From contig JAIQEV010000026.1 of the NCBI GenBank assembly GCA_020073585.1, positions 1 to 48,046 of the forward strand: a DNA stretch of 48,046 nt, written 5' to 3'. Made by a program: the position numbers and the translations under genes. The stretch comes from Terriglobia bacterium (GTDB lineage: Bacteria; Acidobacteriota; Terriglobia; Acidiferrales; UBA7541). Shown here piece after piece: positions 32,351 through 47,838 of this stretch. The notes beneath the pieces are model-generated. The model was given only the letters and a program-made list of their open reading frames with translations, had not been told where the DNA came from and ran no database searches. Each line of letters begins with the position of its first letter. Position 1 is the first letter of the stretch.

Positions 32351-33780
32351 TCTTCCCTCTTCTTCGCCCGCGCCCCGCGCCAATACAGCGCCAGCCCGAT
32401 CCCCACGGCAATCGCCGAACCCCCCAGCAGCTTCACTTCGAAGAGCAGCTTGTTCGCCGTTTCCCCCGGCGGAATCATCGAAAACACGATGCTCGCCAAA
32501 GTCACCGCAAACCCCAGCCCGCCGCACAGCCACACGCCCAGCTTCCCGCCCGGCACCAGCACGTGGTGCTCGTTCTCTCCGCGGTCCTTGCGCGCCGCCA
32601 GCTTGATCACCGCCGCGTACATGTACAGAAACGGAATGAAGTACAGGATCACCGCCGCGTCCACCAAAATCTGGTAGGAACTGTTCGCCGTCTCGTTGAT
32701 CTGGCTCAGCAGCAGCACGATTCCCGTGATCCCCGCCTGCACCAGGATCGCGACATAGGGCGTCCGCCAGCGCGGGTGAATCTTTCCGAACGCGGATGGC
32801 AGATAGCGGTCCACGCCCACCACAAACGGCACGCGCGAGATCCCCGCAACCGTCGTGCCGATGCCTCCCGCGTTTCCCACCGCCGCCAGCAGCGCCGCAA
32901 ACATGCCCACGATCCCCACTTTCAGTATCACGGTGCCGGCCGCCAGCGCCTGGAACACGCCGGATTTCGCGTCCACCTGCATGTCCTGCAGGAGCATCAG
33001 CAGCGCGACGGTGGCCGCAATGTATATCGCGGCGATGAGCACTCCGGAACCCAGAATCGCGCGCGCCAGCGTGCGCCGCGGATCGCGGATCTCGTCGCTC
33101 ATCGCCGAGACCAGCTCCAGCCCCGTAAATGCAAAGGCGATCTGCGACCAGAAGTTCACCGTGTCCCAGTTCCACACCGGCAGCATGTTGTGCAGCGTGA
33201 AGTGTGTGACCGAGCCATGGTGCCAGCGCACCACCGCCGCCGTCAGCACCAGCAGCATCAGCGGCAGGTAGGTCCCCACCCCGCCCGCGTTCTGCAGCCA
33301 TTTGCCGATATTCAGCCCCACCAGGTTCAGAGCTACGGCCACGAACAGCAGCACGAACGAGCCCCACAGCAGAAAGGTGCGGCTCTGCGCCAGGTACCCG
33401 AAGGAACTTCCGCCCACGTACGCGGCCATCGCCGCGCTCGCCAGCAGCAGCCCCGGAAAATAAAAAAACGAATAGACCCAGTAGGACCACCCGGCCACAA
33501 ACCCGTGGAAATCCCCGAACGCTTCCTTGGACCACACGTACAATCCGCCCTCGTGCGGAAAGCGCGTGGACAGCTCGGTGATGACCAGCGCCGTGGGCAC
33601 GAAAAAGAAAAGCGCCGCGATGACCCACAGGCTGATCGAGGAGGCCCCGTTGTGCGCCGCGGCCGCCACCCAGCGCGGCCCCAGCACCGCCGCGATGTTG
33701 AACAGCAGCACGTCCCAGAAGCCCATCGCGCGGCGCAGTTCCGGGGCCGCTGCGCCGGTGGCCGGGGCTGGGTTGCTCAC
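32335..33780 (-). CDS. APC-family amino acid/polyamine-type permease
   Basis: 481 residues with about 12 membrane helices. The start of the transport domain is MGFWDVLLFNIAAVLGPRW, followed by STRFPHEGGLYVWSKEAFG and LVSAMSDEIRDPRRTLARAI, all typical of the APC superfamily (amino acid permease 2-like). I chose GTG 33780 because it overlaps the ABC ATPase stop (GTGA). It is the last gene of the kinase-regulator-mobA-ATPase-permease unit. Substrate cannot be told. It converges on ribE with a 28-bp gap. Confidence 0.88.
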   Translation of the reverse strand: MSNPAPATGAAAPELRRAMGFWDVLLFNIAAVLGPRWVAAAAHNGASSISLWVIAALFFFVPTALVITELSTRFPHEGGLYVWSKEAFGDFHGFVAGWSYWVYSFFYFPGLLLASAAMAAYVGGSSFGYLAQSRTFLLWGSFVLLFVAVALNLVGLNIGKWLQNAGGVGTYLPLMLLVLTAAVVRWHHGSVTHFTLHNMLPVWNWDTVNFWSQIAFAFTGLELVSAMSDEIRDPRRTLARAILGSGVLIAAIYIAATVALLMLLQDMQVDAKSGVFQALAAGTVILKVGIVGMFAALLAAVGNAGGIGTTVAGISRVPFVVGVDRYLPSAFGKIHPRWRTPYVAILVQAGITGIVLLLSQINETANSSYQILVDAAVILYFIPFLYMYAAVIKLAARKDRGENEHHVLVPGGKLGVWLCGGLGFAVTLASIVFSMIPPGETANKLLFEVKLLGGSAIAVGIGLALYWRGARAKKREEVTGD

Positions 33781-41816: not shown

Positions 41817-42812
41817 GTGGGTAGCCTGGGCCTGGTCGGCGTCATCATCGCTCTCACCCTGGCCTTCGAGTTCACCAACGGCTGGCATGACGCCGCCAAC
41901 TCCATCGCCACCGTCGTCTCCACCCGCGTGCTTACCCCCTTCCGCGCCGTGGTCTGGGCCGCCTTCTGGAATTTCGTCGCCGCCTTCGCCTTCGGCACCG
42001 CCGTGGCCAAGACCATCGGCAAGGGCCTCGTGCACATCGAAACGGTCAACGAGCACGTGCTCCTCGCCGGCCTCATCGGCGCCATCCTCTGGAACATGAT
42101 CACCCTGGCCCTCGGCCTGCCCACCAGCTCCTCCCACGCCCTCATGGGCGGCTACGGCGGCGCCGCCGTCGCCAACGCCGGCTTCCGCGCCCTCGTCCTG
42201 CACGGCTGGACCATGCCCGTGCTCTTCATCTTTCTCGCCCCCATCATCGGCCTGATCATCGCCCTGCTGGTCAGCGTGGCCACCAGTTGGCTGGCCCGCC
42301 ACCAGCGCCCCCTCAAGGTGGACCGCTGGTTCCGCCGCCTCCAGCTCTTCTCCGCCGCCGCCTACAGCCTGGGCCACGGCACCAATGACGCCCAGAAAGG
42401 CATGGGCATCATCACCGCCGCCCTGGTCGCCGGCGGCCTCATGAAGTCCTACTCCGTGCCCTTCTGGGTCATCATCTGCTGTCACCTCGCGATGGCCGGC
42501 GGCACCATGGCCGGCGGCTGGCGGGTCATCAAGACCATGGGCCAGCGCATCACCAAACTGAACCCTTTCGGCGGATTTTCCGCCGAGGCCGCCGGCGCTC
42601 TGACCCTCGGCGTTACCGCCCATTTCGGCATTCCGGTGAGCACCACCCACACCATCACCGGCGCCATCGTCGGCGTTGGCGCCTCCCACCGCCTCACCGC
42701 CGTGCGCTGGGGCGTCACCCGCCGCATCGTCTGGGCCTGGATCCTCACCATCCCCGGCGCCGCCCTCTTCGGCTCCGCCCTCTTCCACACCATGCACCTC
42801 TTCTCCCACTGA
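41817..42812 (+). CDS. pit: Low-affinity inorganic phosphate transporter Pit
   Basis: 331 residues, about ten membrane helices, PHO4 family. The two inverted halves carry the paired motifs FTNGWHDAANSIATVVSTR (about 20-38) and SLGHGTNDAQKGMGII (about 182-197), and LGLPTSSSHALMGGYGG and GIPVSTTHTITGAIVGVG. Start is GTG 41817, with GCGAGG upstream. Its partner is the DUF47 protein just before it. A T8 run near 42858 downstream may help end transcription, though no strong hairpin precedes it. Confidence 0.95.
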   Translation: MGSLGLVGVIIALTLAFEFTNGWHDAANSIATVVSTRVLTPFRAVVWAAFWNFVAAFAFGTAVAKTIGKGLVHIETVNEHVLLAGLIGAILWNMITLALGLPTSSSHALMGGYGGAAVANAGFRALVLHGWTMPVLFIFLAPIIGLIIALLVSVATSWLARHQRPLKVDRWFRRLQLFSAAAYSLGHGTNDAQKGMGIITAALVAGGLMKSYSVPFWVIICCHLAMAGGTMAGGWRVIKTMGQRITKLNPFGGFSAEAAGALTLGVTAHFGIPVSTTHTITGAIVGVGASHRLTAVRWGVTRRIVWAWILTIPGAALFGSALFHTMHLFSH

Positions 42813-43137
42813 CCCCATCATCGAGGGCGGCTCACCCCATAGTGGATGGCCCACGCCTTCCGTTTTTTTTCCTTATTGGCGCCTGCCCACGCGCGCGCCT
42901 CGTCATGCCCCCATCCTGCATTTCCCACACGAATCACGCTGTAGGGGCGGGGCTTGCTCCGCCCGCCGCGCCAGCGCTTCGCATCTCCGCCAGATCGCTC
43001 CTGAAATTTCTCAGCGCCGTAGGTGCGCCTTTTGCATCCCGAATGCTGTTGCGGGGCGCGCCAGACGTTAGCCCAGCCCGTGCGGACCGGGAAAGCCATG
43101 TCACCCCTACACCCCTGTCATTCCGAACTTCCCTACG
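42813..43137. other. Non-coding stretch after pit
   Basis: No supported gene. It has a T-run near 42858, a hairpin GGGCGG-GGCTTGCT-CCGCCC at 42945-42964, a dispersed-repeat type common in such genomes, and a truncated copy of the CATTCCGAAC repeat at 43113-43129. Reading frames here lack ribosome-binding sites and protein-like composition. Confidence 0.5.
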
Positions 43138-43185
43138 CCCCTGTCATTCCGAACGAAGTGAGGAATCTGCTTTTCTCTTAGACTC
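43138..43185. repeat. 48-bp CATTCCGAAC repeat, copy 1
   Basis: CCCCTGTCATTCCGAACGAA, then GTGAGGAATCTGCTTTTCTC and TTAGACTC. Identical in all 48 bases to 43258-43305, 120 bp later. Confidence 0.9.
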
Positions 43186-43257
43186 CCCTGGCCACCAAAT
43201 CCATCGTCGCGCGTCACACCGGACTGCAAAGGCGACAGCAGGGCGGACACCAAGGCA

Positions 43258-43305
43258 CCCCTGTCATTCCGAACGAAGTGAGGAATCTGCTTTTCTCTTA
43301 GACTC
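43258..43305. repeat. 48-bp CATTCCGAAC repeat, copy 2
   Basis: Exact copy of 43138-43185. Sequence between the two copies shows no array structure and is not itself duplicated. Confidence 0.9.
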
Positions 43306-43370
43306 TCTTCTGCGTCCCGGCGCTCTTAACCGGCAAGCCCGGCTCCCGGTCTCGTCTCTTGCCTTTGCCT

Positions 43371-43449
43371 GTCATCCCTGAAAGGAGCCCGCGCAGTGAG
43401 GAACCTCTGCCTCTTCGCCCGCGTTATTGGCGGGCGAAGAATCTCTCTT
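43371..43449. repeat. REP-type element with internal hairpin, copy 1
   Basis: About 79 bp. GTCATCCCTG...GCGCAGTGAGGAACC, then a perfect 10-bp stem CTTCGCCCGC-GTTATTG-GCGGGCGAAG (43413-43439) and AATCTCTCTT. A second copy with loop GTTGTTG lies at 43981-44058. Confidence 0.85.
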
Positions 43450-43455
43450 ACAATC

Positions 43456-43564
43456 GAAGCTCACCCGGTTGTTGCCCTTTTATCACTCTCGGTGACATGT
43501 GACAGTGGTATCCTCGCTCTGGACTGCGCGGGCCGAAACGCGCTCCGAACAATCCGCCACCCGC
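43456..43564. repeat. Diverged 110-bp duplicate block, copy 1
   Basis: From GAAGCTCACCCGG through GCCCTTTTATCACTC and GACAGTGGTATCCTCGC to CACCCGC. Roughly four-fifths of bases match 44384-44493. Confidence 0.75.
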
Positions 43565-43640
43565 CAATTCACAAGTCAAAATCACTTTGGAGTGTGCTAA
43601 TAGGGATAGGAAATCGATTAGCAGCAGAAAGGACGGTCCA

Positions 43641-43853
43641 ATGCTTCTAAAGATGGCTCTCTTGACTTGCGCATTTTACATTGCACTGCTTCTTTCTTTT
43701 CAGGCAGTTCTCTTTTTCTGGGCGTACTGGAAAGGTGCGGCAATGATCTTCTCGACAAGGTGGGGCTGGACTCTCGTCTCTGGAATGATGTGGTTCCTTT
43801 CATTTCAGCTAGCATGGCACTTTACCGTGGTTCGGCAGGTGGCAGCCCCTTGA
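43641..43853 (+). CDS. Small two-span membrane protein, unknown
   Basis: 70 residues, MLLKMALLTCAFYIALLLSF at the start. Two hydrophobic helices (about 4-28 and 38-60) separated by a Trp/Tyr-rich turn (FFWAYWKGAAMIFSTRWGW). The ATG at 43641 is preceded by AAAGGAC at suitable spacing. I do not recognise a family. It sits alone among repeats, on DNA of lower GC than the core. Its composition and start signal make a real gene plausible, but a chance frame cannot be excluded. Confidence 0.5.
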   Translation: MLLKMALLTCAFYIALLLSFQAVLFFWAYWKGAAMIFSTRWGWTLVSGMMWFLSFQLAWHFTVVRQVAAP

Positions 43854-43980
43854 TGCGTCGGCAAGCACCGAGTGCCGTACCCTTTTCGTCCGCAAAAAGG
43901 GTGCAGTCTTGCTTCAGCTTCTGGCAATACCGCGCACAGTCTCATTCCCGTCATCTCTGAATGCAGTCCGTCCACCCGCC

Positions 43981-44058
43981 GTCATTCCGAACGCAGTCCG
44001 CGCAGTGAGGAACCGCTGCCCCTTCGCCCGCGTTGTTGGCGGGCGAAGAATCTCTCTT
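43981..44058. repeat. REP-type element with internal hairpin, copy 2
   Basis: GTCATTCCGAACGCAGTCCG...GCAGTGAGGAACC followed by CTTCGCCCGC-GTTGTTG-GCGGGCGAAG (44022-44048). Pairs with 43371-43449. A truncated GTCATTCCGAACGGAGTCCG follows at 44068-44087. Confidence 0.85.
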
Positions 44059-44087
44059 CGCCTGTGTGTCATTCCGAACGGAGTCCG

Positions 44088-44181
44088 ATGCCTAACCACG
44101 CCCCGTCATTCCGAACGGAGTCCGCGGAGTGAGGAATCTCTCTTCTCCTTTGTCCCACGCTCCTGGCCTCAGAAACGCGCG
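44088..44181. repeat. 94-bp repeat, copy 1
   Basis: ATGCCTAACCAC, GTCATTCCGAACGGAGTCCG, CGGAGTGAGGAATCTCTCTTC and CTCCTGGCCTCAGAAA in order. Near-identical block 180 bp downstream. Confidence 0.85.
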
Positions 44182-44267
44182 CCAAGTGGCCCAGACGTGG
44201 ATCTTGCGCGTGGTGCTTTTGACTTTTGCCATGAATAGCAGCGAGAACCTATCTCCTAAATATCCAA

Positions 44268-44361
44268 ATGCCTAACCACACGCCGTCATTCCGAACGGAG
44301 TCCGCGGAGTGAGGAATCTCTCTTCGCCCTTGTGCCATGCTCCTGGCGTCAGAAATGCGCG
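44268..44361. repeat. 94-bp repeat, copy 2
   Basis: Differs from 44088-44181 by scattered single bases only. The intervening 86 bp are unique and contain no gene I can support. Confidence 0.85.
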
Positions 44362-44383
44362 TCGGGCGGCCCTCAATAAGAGT

Positions 44384-44493
44384 GAAGCCCACCCGGGATG
44401 GTGCCCTTTTATCACTCCGGAATGACGTATGACAGTGGTATCCTCGCCCTGGCCTGCGCGGGACGAAATACAATCGGAAGAATGCGTCACCCG
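44384..44493. repeat. Diverged 110-bp duplicate block, copy 2
   Basis: From GAAGCCCACCCGG through GCCCTTTTATCACTC and GACAGTGGTATCCTCGC to CACCCGC; matches 43456-43564 in the same orientation. Confidence 0.75.
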
Positions 44494-44499
44494 CGGTCA

Positions 44500-44514: not shown

Positions 44515-44891
44515 CGGGATTTGTATTCAACACGACGCGCCTGTTTTCAATGAGATGGAACTGGTAGGGGCGGTGGGGATCGGACTAAAAGCGACGCTGA
44601 AAACGCGTAAATTATTGATTCTATTAAACAAGAAAAACGCTAAAAACACCTGATTCGCCCAACCGAGGTACACGCCGGGTACACGGAGACTTCAGACATG
44701 GTTGTGGACTCTTCGACAGCGAAGGAACCGACTTCCCGATTGCACTATTCGCAGAATCGGACGCCAAAGGTAGTAAGGGAATACGCGCTCGTGGCGAGCT
44801 CCAAAGTGGGTGTTCTTGCGGTCCGTGCGGATGATCAATCCTTGTGCTCGCAATCGCGCGCATGACACATGAATGTGAGCACTGTCGGCAA
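44515..44891. other. Stretch without a supported gene
   Basis: Low-GC sequence with A-runs near 44605-44645 and a possible tRNA-tail-like segment at 44562-44592. No reading frame with a good start signal is seen. A minus-strand frame at 44624-45151 overlaps two better supported genes. Confidence 0.4.
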
Positions 44892-45465: not shown

Positions 45466-45735
45466 CTACCGGAACCCATCAAACGTCGCCATTGTCGGGG
45501 ATGCAAACGGATAAACTCAGAAGGGAGCCCCAGCCCAAGGCTAACTCCTCATTCGCAGAGCATGAATAGTCTGCGAGTATCTAGTTCTGAAGGGTTAACA
45601 TATGTGTCGGATGGATTACGCCCTTTCAGGGCAAGTACCATCGCCTAAATTCAATGCTACAGTGATCCTTGAAAGTGGGAATTCTTGTGAGCAATTGGCC
45701 GGGGTCGCGTGAATGAACCCCGCGCGGAGGAAGCG
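45466..45735. other. Divergent intergenic region
   Basis: About 270 bp between the hypothetical pair and the secreted protein. GC is lower than in the core. GCGGAGGAAGCG before 45736 is a clear ribosome-binding site. I see no RNA gene; a GCCCTTTCAGGGC hairpin lies near 45620. Confidence 0.4.
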
Positions 45736-46431
45736 ATGAAGCCGGTAATGATGGCTGTGGCGTTATGCGTGACGGCATGGCCGGTGTTTGGTCAGCAGAG
45801 CACGACCGATACAAGCTGCTATGTCAACGGTCAATTGGTTAACTGCATATCCACGACCAAGACCGAACCTCCACCGAGTGGCGGTGCTTTGGAAGGCATT
45901 AATAAGGCTTTGGCCGAGCGCCGTGCAAAGGCTGACGCCAATCGAAACCAAAACGCTCAAAATGTTCAGCAGCCCCCCCAACTTTCGGCAGAGGCAATAA
46001 AAGAGCTGCTTGCGGAAGAAAAGCAGGAAAGGGAGTCCAAAAACACCGTTGATTACATCTATTGCCGCCAAAACTCAAAGGGCAGCATAACGGATTCTGA
46101 AGGGAAATCAAAAGCTTGTGCTGAGGTAATCGAGTACACGAAAGCGTTTTGTTTGGTCAATCCCGGCGTCGAGAGATGCACCCTCGCAAAATCGAAGGCG
46201 GAGGTAGACAAGGCGTTTTCAGTTCTGTCGGAGGACTATAAGGCCGATCCGCGCCGAAATAAGAAAGATGCCCAAATGTACTACGACTCGTTGTTCGCCA
46301 AGCTGACAAAGTGGGGATGCATGTCTTTCCCCGACATGACTCTGCCGCAGCGGGACGGAACATCGCATCCCTGCCCTAACGCACCAGAACCCGCTCCTCT
46401 ACATGCGGACGCTGGATCGCAGAACAAGTAA
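45736..46431 (+). CDS. Secreted cysteine-rich protein, unknown
   Basis: 231 residues. Signal peptide MKPVMMAVALCVTAWPVFGQ, likely cut after about residue 19-20. The mature part has eight cysteines (in DTSCYVNGQLVNC, IYCRQN, SKACAEV, AFCLVNPGVERC, WGCMSF and HPCPNA), suggesting disulfides, and a Gln/Glu/Lys-rich helical middle (about 60-105). ATG 45736 is chosen for its GGAGGAAGCG ribosome-binding site rather than GTG 45709. It precedes the protease gene by 81 bp and may be expressed with it; it could be a substrate or partner. No family recognised. Confidence 0.75.
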   Translation: MKPVMMAVALCVTAWPVFGQQSTTDTSCYVNGQLVNCISTTKTEPPPSGGALEGINKALAERRAKADANRNQNAQNVQQPPQLSAEAIKELLAEEKQERESKNTVDYIYCRQNSKGSITDSEGKSKACAEVIEYTKAFCLVNPGVERCTLAKSKAEVDKAFSVLSEDYKADPRRNKKDAQMYYDSLFAKLTKWGCMSFPDMTLPQRDGTSHPCPNAPEPAPLHADAGSQNK

Positions 46432-46512: not shown

Positions 46513-47838
46513 ATGGTCAAACGTTTTGCGCCGAAGCTTATTTCTCTGTGTTTTATCGTTGCTGGTGTCGTTGCCGCACAGTCGGTGCCGCCTCGAAAGG
46601 ACATACCAGCGATAGCTAAAGCTGCGAATGGGTCAATCGTAACCATCATCACGGCGGCCAACGATAAGCCCATAGCGCAGGGCACTGGTTTCCTTGTCAG
46701 CGAGGACGGCGTGATCGTGACGAACTACCACGTCATCGAGACCGGCAACCTGGCTGTCGTTAAATTCCCCGACGATACCGCGTTTCCGGTTGATGGTGTG
46801 CTGGCAGCCGATAAAGTCCGCGACCTCGCCATCATCAAAATTCACAGTAAAACCTTCCGCATGCTCCCGCTTGGCGATTCAGATGATATTCAAGTCGGTG
46901 AAGAAGTCGTTGCAATCGGCAATCCGCTCTTGCTTGAATCAACTGTCTCGAACGGAATAATCAGCGGAGTGCGAACATCGAAAGAACAAGGCGGTAAATT
47001 CTTGCAGACCACTGCACCGATCTCCCCTGGCAGCAGCGGCGGGCCTTTGTTCAACATGCGCGGCGAGGTTGTCGGGATCAATACCTTGTATCTCGAAGGC
47101 GGCGAAAATCTGAACTTTGCGATTCCTGTTAACGACGCGAAGCTCCTGCTCTCGCATCAATCCGCGAAGCTCCAGAACTTGCCCAACGAACGCGGTACAG
47201 ACACGCCAGAACCAGACCCACCAAAACCCGATGTGTCGACCGGATTGCCCTCCGACGCCGCGTCGGCGAGAGAGAAGGAGTCTGGTATCGCCGCTCCGTC
47301 GCACAAGACAGCGAAGGGTAACCAACCACTTTCTTATTACGTTCGGACCTACCAGCACGGTAGCTACGTCATCGAATACGATGGCCGCCAATTGGCCGCG
47401 ACGTGCCGCGAAACTCTGTCCTACCTGGACGGTATAGATAAACCGGGAGGGCCTATGGCTGAGCACGACTGCACGTACATGCATAGTTTAGTGGGGAAAC
47501 ACATTAGTCCCGAACTAATGTGGCGACGGGACAAGGAATTACGATACCAACCGTGGTCGGGCCAAGACACAGCGCAGACGGCCGATATTCTGGATATTAC
47601 CGCAGAAGCTCCCATCGGTTCCCCCCTGCGAGGGTCTTCGCCCAAGACTAGCCCGGAAATCTTGAAGACGTTGCACTGGATTCAGAACACGCTCGCCGAT
47701 GAGGAAGGTAACACAGTCTACTCAAGTAAGGACGGTACGCTCGGTACACGAGTAAATCTCTTGCCCGACGTGAATGGCTGTCAGGTGACTTTCGCTTACG
47801 CGATCCGAGGCGAACAATCAAAGGAAACGTATCACTGA
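46513..47838 (+). CDS. HtrA-like secreted serine protease with novel C-terminal half, possibly truncated by IS
   Basis: 441 residues. Signal peptide (about 1-22, VAGVVAAQS). A trypsin-like S1C domain at about 30-215 has the whole triad: His73 (VTNYHVIE), Asp104 (VRDLAIIKI), Ser175 (SPGSSGGPLF). No PDZ domain follows; instead there is a Pro/Asp-rich linker (about 225-275) and an unrecognised C-terminal region with two cysteines (AATCRETL and EHDCTYMH). AGAGGAAATAGAG precedes the ATG. The stop TGA (47836-47838) coincides with the first bases of an IS3-type terminal repeat, so the natural end may have been lost. Confidence 0.88.
   Translation: MVKRFAPKLISLCFIVAGVVAAQSVPPRKDIPAIAKAANGSIVTIITAANDKPIAQGTGFLVSEDGVIVTNYHVIETGNLAVVKFPDDTAFPVDGVLAADKVRDLAIIKIHSKTFRMLPLGDSDDIQVGEEVVAIGNPLLLESTVSNGIISGVRTSKEQGGKFLQTTAPISPGSSGGPLFNMRGEVVGINTLYLEGGENLNFAIPVNDAKLLLSHQSAKLQNLPNERGTDTPEPDPPKPDVSTGLPSDAASAREKESGIAAPSHKTAKGNQPLSYYVRTYQHGSYVIEYDGRQLAATCRETLSYLDGIDKPGGPMAEHDCTYMHSLVGKHISPELMWRRDKELRYQPWSGQDTAQTADILDITAEAPIGSPLRGSSPKTSPEILKTLHWIQNTLADEEGNTVYSSKDGTLGTRVNLLPDVNGCQVTFAYAIRGEQSKETYH

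Follow-up and report, generated by a model that had tools for sequence, protein, structure and literature searches.

A nest of REP-like hairpins beside a phosphate transporter gene in a Terriglobia genome: structure, distribution and strand orientation of the GTCAT element

Background

The closest described relatives of the element reported here are the CGTC-tagged repetitive extragenic palindromes (REPs), which, in the text description given by Di Nocera et al. (2013, PMC3733652), combine a 5' CGTC or TGTC tag with a stem opening with A-T pairs, lie outside genes in several phyla and have no transposase adjoining their copies. Neisseria dRS3 and Rickettsia RPE-4 and RPE-6 are assigned to the same superfamily, with large clusters in Neisseriae. 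The REPs of Escherichia coli and Pseudomonas are also tagged, imperfect hairpins, extragenic and present in many copies (PMC8266576, PMC6006769), and the E. coli transposase TnpA-REP needs a GTAG tag together with a mispaired bulge (PMC8266576). In the IS200/IS605 family, strand choice is tied to replication and the ends are folded single strands (PMC6006769). We describe a REP-like hairpin, [CT]GTC-AT-YYY-GA-[apical hairpin]-GA-RRR-AT-C, hereafter the GTCAT element, which is piled up in a nest at positions 43105-44498 of a 48,046-nucleotide stretch of DNA (contig JAIQEV010000026.1 of the Terriglobia bacterium assembly GCA_020073585.1; 'the window' denotes this whole stretch), to the right of a PiT phosphate transporter gene.

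A sequence-only reading of the window had pointed to a REP-rich hot spot, a description that is supported if REP is taken to mean a REP-like hairpin whose stem covaries. The nest is a real, locally amplified cluster of the element, whose identity and structure are well supported and whose route of spread is inferred. Our explanation, which we hold with belief and doubt about evenly poised, is that REP-like hairpins of the single-stranded-DNA type have piled up locally in the nest, spread by a protein other than the resident transposase of the REP-associated tyrosine transposase (RAYT) type, with repeat offsets that arose by later duplication. The element itself is best read as a variant of the CGTC-tagged REPs that probably spreads in the form of a single-stranded hairpin with the help of a mobilizer.

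Results and discussion

Structure of the element

Within the nest, the core GTCATTCCGAACG is present as seven copies or fragments, every one on the + strand (six exact and one with a single mismatch, at 43117-44297). The whole window holds eight core matches, including an unrelated two-mismatch match at 32780, compared with 1.43 ± 1.23 in shuffled sequence; none of 100 window shuffles reached eight, the largest count being seven. A genome-wide count of the core, a check that had been proposed from the sequence, returned 83 places at up to three mismatches versus six for a reversed control. The form GTCATTCCGAACG...GAGGAATCT, taken in the sequence-only reading as the common core, is present, but only as a local subfamily: the commoner form in the genome is GTCATTYCGAGCGAAGCGAGRAATCT, from which the GAACGAAGTGAG form of the window differs by a paired inner-stem change, G-C to A-T. 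The window core is a diverged subfamily of a genome-wide repeat.

A complete unit consists of an unpaired [CT]GTC tag, a 5-bp lower stem that opens with A-T and T-A, and an ATC end, with a conserved internal GA/GA mispair, in a pyrimidine-GA/GA-purine context, beneath a variable apical hairpin; the commonest short apical form among the sets studied is a GNA triloop closed by C-G. The hairpin is demonstrated by covariation. When one genome per GTDB species (84,980) was searched with the stem arms left free, the 25-mer form gave at least 138 matches in at least 119 stretches and at least 15 phyla by record title, these 119 stretches being a non-random sample with group labels assigned from titles. 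In the elements so collected, 393 of 414 free arm pairs were complementary, compared with 277.8 ± 6.2 in 2,000 shuffles that ignore relatedness, and 118 of the 138 were fully paired, in nine fully paired combinations. Genomes, contigs and loci are labelled below with G, C and L numbers, G000 being the window's own genome and G028 that of a sister species. Of 45 short forms in the own genome, 44 are complementary at all three free arm positions, and the inner pair is G-C in 32, A-T in nine, C-G in three and otherwise in one.

A pyrimidine precedes the first GA in 243/245 pan-bacterial elements, 217/217 from IMG/VR, 95/95 from G129, G198 and G268, 75/75 from the own genome and 26/26 from G028; the scan behind these counts required a paired lower stem and GA/GA, nested matches may count twice in it, and the own-genome loci had been fetched with a pattern having C at that position. 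Apical hairpins very unlike one another in sequence and length stand on this same GA/GA base. Among the forms left free by the fetch pattern, an apical stem of at least 2 bp (G-U allowed) was found in 61/95 pan-bacterial and 60/91 IMG/VR forms versus 32% of swapped controls, and in 18/27 own-genome (45% of controls), 17/20 G028 (55%) and 10/15 G129/G198/G268 forms (45%). Sheared tandem G-A pairs are favoured in a pyrimidine-GA/GA-purine context and C(GNA)G triloops give very stable DNA hairpins; the DNA energy model is not known to reward either of these motifs. Papers that print GCGAAGC also mention hairpins of extraordinary stability. As a whole, the conserved parts resemble a structure that is read in single-stranded DNA; the DNA energy model used here shows no special stability. 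An Rfam search found no family above its gathering score at the nest.

Comparison with known repeat families

Our comparison with the CGTC-tagged REPs was made by text description (PMC3733652), which distinguishes four families. The tag of that class is CGTC, TGTC or CCTC, unpaired, and all seven window copies carry TGTC or CGTC; the search patterns fixed GTC, hence the more distant sets do not test the tag. The A-T, T-A start of the stem is also found, the four complete simple copies of the window reading GTC-AT...AT-C. In 0.8 Mb of G028 chosen regardless of the element there were 44 GTC-AT hairpins, many of which look like chance, versus 1-29 for 20 control patterns. As in the CGTC class, the element does not flank transposases, at least those of the type tested (Y1_Tnp, see below).

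The differences concern both architecture and arrangement. CGTC REPs have a stem of 8-9 bp and a loop of 4-5 nt (Table 1, PMC3733652), whereas the short form of the element has 5 bp, GA/GA, 2 bp and a 3-nt loop, its long forms have apical parts of tens of nucleotides, and the conserved in-stem mispair is foreign to the class as there described. The tail of the element is CT[CG] (CTC or CTG in the window) rather than mostly CCA, and T is the sole base that the pan-bacterial set conserves to the right of ATC. Head-to-head dimers predominate among the CGTC REPs and head-to-tail ones are negligible (PMC3733652), while the element clusters head-to-tail in its own genome, where each of the five multi-element intergenic regions has all its copies on one strand; inverted element pairs are present in other phyla (for example L126, L147 and L151). 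The strand lock of Terriglobia, described below, further sets the element apart from that published account. Its link to dRS3 and to RPE-4 and RPE-6 is through their superfamily placement.

With the REPs of E. coli and Pseudomonas the element shares the traits listed above, but its tag is not GTAG and its copies stand without an adjoining RAYT. It forms neither a REPtron, in which a RAYT gene is flanked by a repeat tagged GTAG or GTGG, nor a bacterial interspersed mosaic element, in which REPs are paired in inverse orientation: the window copies are all on the + strand, and those of the own genome likewise show no inverse pairing. With respect to miniature inverted-repeat transposable elements (MITEs), which have terminal inverted repeats and a target-site duplication, a comparison of 11 orthologous sites with G028 showed no clean empty site. 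IS200/IS605 elements are similar in strand choice and in the folded single strand, with the difference that no transposase gene was found inside or beside the GTCAT element. Similarity of REP motifs across taxa is low according to the RepRanger paper (PMC12306157), in the searched portions of which neither a GTCAT nor a GAGCG string occurs. A literature string search for unbroken cores, which gapped or figure-printed strings would escape, gave matches that were mostly eukaryotic by title and are probably primers.

Distribution and turnover

The wide distribution demonstrated by the pan-bacterial search is patchy at closer range. The element is held by 37 of 297 Acidobacteriota genomes and, in the window's own genus, by 31 of 36, and copy number ranges from 0 to 74 inside one genus. 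The 86 element contexts of the own genome comprise 58 between called genes, five within a call and 23 at a locus edge. Contigs of IMG/VR supplied 92 further stretches (L265-L356), UViG 2808606664 repeatedly, which could be prophage or host DNA and entered the counts only.

Sister species differ at orthologous sites. Out of 22 aligned rows, 11 sites were compared between the own genome and G028, leaving out one duplicate, nine array-to-array matches (e6-e8, e12 and e20-e23, e21 having two subjects) and e75, which was judged not to be an element. At eight sites G028 has no element in the interval (e53 by alignment; e62 perhaps holds a remnant), while e79 has a longer form, e24 two other GTCAT-type hairpins and e80, by inspection, a similar hairpin. 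At e53 and e80 the hairpin finder missed the G000 copy as well, so that absence from G028 rests on alignment. In seven relatives, no element with intact tag and core was found 3' of PiT, over 4,000 nt for six of them and 1,257 nt for the seventh.

Strand orientation and GC skew

In the stretches studied from G129 and G268, all 81 elements lie on the locally C-rich strand. The count covers 51/51 elements of G129 and 30/41 of G268, in which the other 11 are on contig C1 outside the stretches; three of G129 excepted, the stretches had been picked for holding elements. The lock is also evident in the own genome (84/86, or 77/81 counting 700-nt flanks alone), and elsewhere in the genus it holds for 22/23 elements of G028 and 25/29 of other members. 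A looser structural definition gives 73/75 in the own genome and 95/95 in G129, G198 and G268, a set that otherwise stands at 85/85, with orthologous copies possibly counted twice. At L508 and L494 the 20-kb skew is near zero owing to an internal flip; near the element it is negative on the element's strand. A universal lock is ruled out by the pan-bacterial sample (76/167, or 113/245 under the looser definition); the lock belongs to these Terriglobia and does not accompany the element wherever it occurs.

Base composition was rejected as the cause of the orientation, since the element is slightly richer in G than in C yet sits on the C-rich strand, and since, of the 80 balanced 9-mers examined in G129 and G268, only the element's own core, the most biased of them, reached 0.9; the top bias among 28 balanced 8-mers in the own-genome loci was 0.70. 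Skew is uniform over many kilobases in several stretches, and its sign flips many times along one 4.9-Mb contig. On G129 contig C1 (L503-L542) and in G268 (L483-L502) the 20-kb skew reaches about ±0.3, with sharp and frequent flips. Gene strand was rejected as the source of the skew in G129, where Pfam-supported genes lie on both strands of the uniformly skewed L505 and L527. Called genes favour the C-rich strand (59% in 40 G129 stretches, 62% in 20 G268 stretches) and, where the neighbouring genes are in tandem, the element has their sense in 36/43 cases in G129 and G268 and in 21/24 regions of the own genome; element orientation is tied more tightly to skew than to gene strand. The simplest reading of the lock is that elements insert into a single strand of the replication fork and that inversions later moved skew and elements together. 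A literature search on REPs with leading strand, orientation and GC skew found nothing.

Relation to the Y1_Tnp transposases

A search for a RAYT gene, suggested from the sequence alone, revealed no link with the element. The own genome has a single Y1_Tnp gene and G028 has one 3 kb beyond PiT, both bracketed by GCCCCAC-type palindromes and not by the element. Testing of 47 Acidobacteriota genomes gave 202 Y1_Tnp matches, spread over 42 of them, and the element occurs in 0/31 scanned loci, mostly about 1.5 kb per side, one from each of 30 genomes plus the own. At E<=0.001 no Y1_Tnp was detected in G268 (41 element copies), G071 (21), G138 (4) or G127 (1), the first three of which are each 99% complete. 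Four of the five genomes without Y1_Tnp hold the element and the fifth lacks it; it is also absent from seven genomes that have Y1_Tnp. On the strength of the 31 loci and of the element-bearing genomes that have no Y1_Tnp, a RAYT was rejected as the present mobilizer. The mechanism that we propose is that the unit would move as a folded single strand, would be passed to one of the two strands when the fork goes by, and would depend on a mobilizing protein that differs from the resident RAYT-like transposase.

Some of the Y1_Tnp loci carry hairpins of another kind. Sixteen matches to Rfam Acido-Lenti-1 fall in nine of the 31 loci (L361, L362, L364, L365, L366, L367, L370, L372 and L373), of which 13 lie no more than 250 nt from the domain; in L362, L364 and L367 they stand inverted on both sides of Y1_Tnp; the Y1_Tnp loci of the own genome and G028 have no match. 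None was found in 120 kb of other DNA, a weak control, being from G028 and G129 and not from the hit-bearing genomes. Acido-Lenti-1 has the Rfam type of an sRNA gene and figures as a probable RNA in a 2010 table (PMC2864571), but may instead be a RAYT-associated palindrome of these transposases.

Duplication within the nest

Four kinds of repeat are intermixed in the nest: the GTCAT element, a second hairpin, and two dispersed repeats, A and B. The element occurs seven times, complete or truncated, in addition to a diverged compound copy at 43371, and the second hairpin, CTTCGCCCGC-loop-GCGGGCGAAG, is inserted within the 3' arm of two element copies. The repeat pairs of the sequence-only reading were largely recovered. 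The identical 48-bp pair at offset 120 is exact (43138-43185/43258-43305, 48 nt, 100%), and the hairpin pair at about 610 lies at 43380-43449/43989-44058 (70 nt, 91%, offset 609). The pair at offset 180 keeps its offset; described as 94 bp and near-identical, it measures 105 nt at 89% (44088-44192/44268-44372). The diverged pair at about 928 resolves into two ungapped pieces, 25 nt at 88% with offset 929 and 72 nt at 82% with offset 930. That all pairs are built on the core proved incorrect: the pair at about 930 is a separate dispersed repeat, both copies of which, spanning 43453-43564 and 44384-44498, align to one G028 stretch, and the hairpin pair is not the core alone but the element plus the second, inserted hairpin. 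The second copy of the former contains a 10-nt near-match to the start of the core, on the - strand.

The suggestion of repeated local duplication was supported, the 120-bp unit being that of a dispersed tandem array. The left block, with its 120-bp offset, is a unit arrayed on C49 (125 bp x 3.2), with related blocks on C112 and C27, and on G028 contig C7 (119 bp x 2.8, Tandem Repeats Finder period 119); arrays of the 120-bp unit elsewhere have other copy numbers. A flank of about 1.3 kb is common to the C112 and G028 arrays, which look like one array in two species, arranged differently. The nest probably grew through tandem duplication of units that are also arrayed elsewhere and in the sister species. 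The exact offsets of 120 and 180 bp would then reflect a later step in which units made up of element and spacer were duplicated head-to-tail, probably through slippage or through unequal recombination between copies.

Alternative explanations

Assembly artefact from collapsed repeats, named beforehand as what would undo the observation, is barely credible: the assembly does consist of 113 contigs and the nest is 3.5 kb from a contig end, but the paired copies, the 48-bp pair excepted, differ by 9-18%, and the unit of 119-120 bp is also arrayed in the separate genome of G028. A transcribed RNA element, with hairpins that stabilize or terminate the 3' regions of mRNAs, is unlikely, although it would suit several observations. 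The nearest gene end is 3' in 43 and 5' in 15 of the 58 intergenic elements of the own genome, the sense bias toward tandem neighbours points the same way, and two compound units have terminator-like hairpins. Those two, and no simple element, belong to four terminator-like sites, with a GC stem followed by a T run, in the region versus 2.1 ± 1.5 in shuffles; skew strand predicts orientation better (81/81) than gene strand does (36/43), the gene strands come from a rough gene caller, and the tandem sense bias is 14 to 9 in the 43 of the 119 pan-bacterial loci whose GC does not exceed 50%.

To a REP mobilized by a RAYT we give little credence. In tag, hairpin and conserved mispair the element is similar to the substrate required by E. 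coli TnpA-REP (PMC8266576), the strand lock suits an HUH enzyme acting on single-stranded DNA and most of the tested Acidobacteriota genomes have a Y1_Tnp gene, but the scanned loci are free of the element, nine of them bear Acido-Lenti-1 hairpins instead, and element and gene part company in both directions, in four genomes and seven, unless a RAYT has been lost from the former. Equally improbable is a polar chromosome signal, with one orientation per replication arm, used by a strand-reading system of the KOPS (FtsK-orienting polar sequence) or Chi type. The near-perfect lock in Terriglobia, with a slightly G-rich element on the C-rich strand, is what such a signal would give; however, the copies are few (tens per genome), may lie in clusters and are missing from some species within a single genus, and a signal read in the duplex would not need a compensated hairpin.

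Our own explanation, a single-stranded hairpin spread by a protein other than the resident RAYT-like transposase, has several observations to contend with. No mobilizing enzyme was found, no movement of the element was observed, and the 11 orthologous sites compared with G028 include no clean empty site with a target duplication. Turnover is not total, at least one array (C112 with G028 C7) being common to sister species, and G004 (L252) retains a tag-less long-form remnant 1.4 kb 3' of PiT. The bare 27-mer folds weakly as DNA (-1.9 kcal/mol, a value equalled or bettered by 129 of 200 shuffles), and the RNA folds of six window stretches do not stand out either (z -1.5 to 1.2). As to the lock, the looser definition lowers G028 to 22/26, the pan-bacterial sample is without it and the IMG/VR set has it more weakly (80/118), and rRNA operon regions conflict on which strand is leading, that of G129 pointing to the C-rich and that of G028 to the G-rich strand. 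A broader version, tentative and rather doubtful, is of a pan-bacterial family of mobile single-stranded DNA hairpins, defined by the pyrimidine-GA/GA-purine mispair and a swappable apex and served by a host- or phage-borne non-RAYT enzyme, which in Terriglobia would enter one fork strand only and record past fork direction through later inversions.

The mobilizer of the CGTC-tagged REPs is stated as open in PMC3733652. The wide spread, covarying stem, patchy copies, orthologous-site differences and strand bias reported here make the mobilizer question testable, and element-rich and element-free species of one genus offer a comparison for finding it. The strand lock may also mark the direction of replication where GC-skew domains flip many times.

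Annotation of the nest and its surroundings

The left neighbour of the nest is the PiT-type transporter gene (41817..42812, + strand; Pfam PF01384 PHO4, E 7.5e-91; G028 identity 95.8%). Just left of the nest lies a sub-threshold match to Rfam Acido-Lenti-1 (43050..43091, - strand), at 21.6 bits versus a gathering score of 37 (E 0.05), for which membership is not claimed. The features of the nest that follow are all on the + strand. A 26-bp tandem duplication of the element's 5' end (43105..43154; 1.9 copies, 95%) opens the nest, its first copy truncated, with GTCATTCCGAAC at 43117. The short-form element GTCATTCC-GA-ACGAAGT-GA-GGAATC, copy 1 within the 48-bp pair, is at 43143..43167 and copy 2, exactly 120 bp on, at 43263..43287, both within the block of the dispersed array unit of about 120 bp, element plus spacer (43138..43340; 76-94% identity to the related blocks on C112, C49, C27 and G028 C7). 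The diverged compound element (43371..43449) reads GTCATCC...GTGAGGAACC, the inserted hairpin, then AATCTCTCTT; the hairpin folds and is terminator-like.

Copy 1 of repeat A, the separate dispersed repeat of about 110 bp, occupies 43453..43564 (82.6% to G028 C2) and copy 2 lies at 44384..44498 (87.8% to G028 C2, at the orthologous site). Downstream of copy 1, a 70-residue open reading frame (ORF; 43641..43853) looks membrane-protein-like by inspection and has no match in a Pfam scan. Repeat A precedes differing small ORFs downstream of PiT in G028 (L241) and one small ORF in the window, a cassette-like layout. Repeat B, a dispersed repeat of about 117 bp (43831..43947), is also found on contigs C49, C1 and C24 and in G028. 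It is followed by the compound element GTCATTCC-GA-ACGCAGTCCGCGCAGT-GA-GGAA with the inserted hairpin before AATCTCTCTT (43981..44058; terminator-like), a truncated element of which only the 5' half is present (44068..44087), and the first copy of the 105-nt direct repeat (44088..44192; second 44268-44372). Within these two copies lie the long-form elements GTCATTCC-GA-ACGGAGTCCGCGGAGT-GA-GGAATC, copy 1 at 44105..44138 (DNA fold -6.6 kcal/mol, z -1.12) and copy 2, exactly 180 bp on, at 44285..44318.

To the right of the nest, a stretch of about 80-145 bp within 44546-44690 has matches, at about 69-92% identity, in many genomes of the genus. It is followed by an ORF without a Pfam match (45709-46431) and a trypsin-like peptidase (46513-47838).

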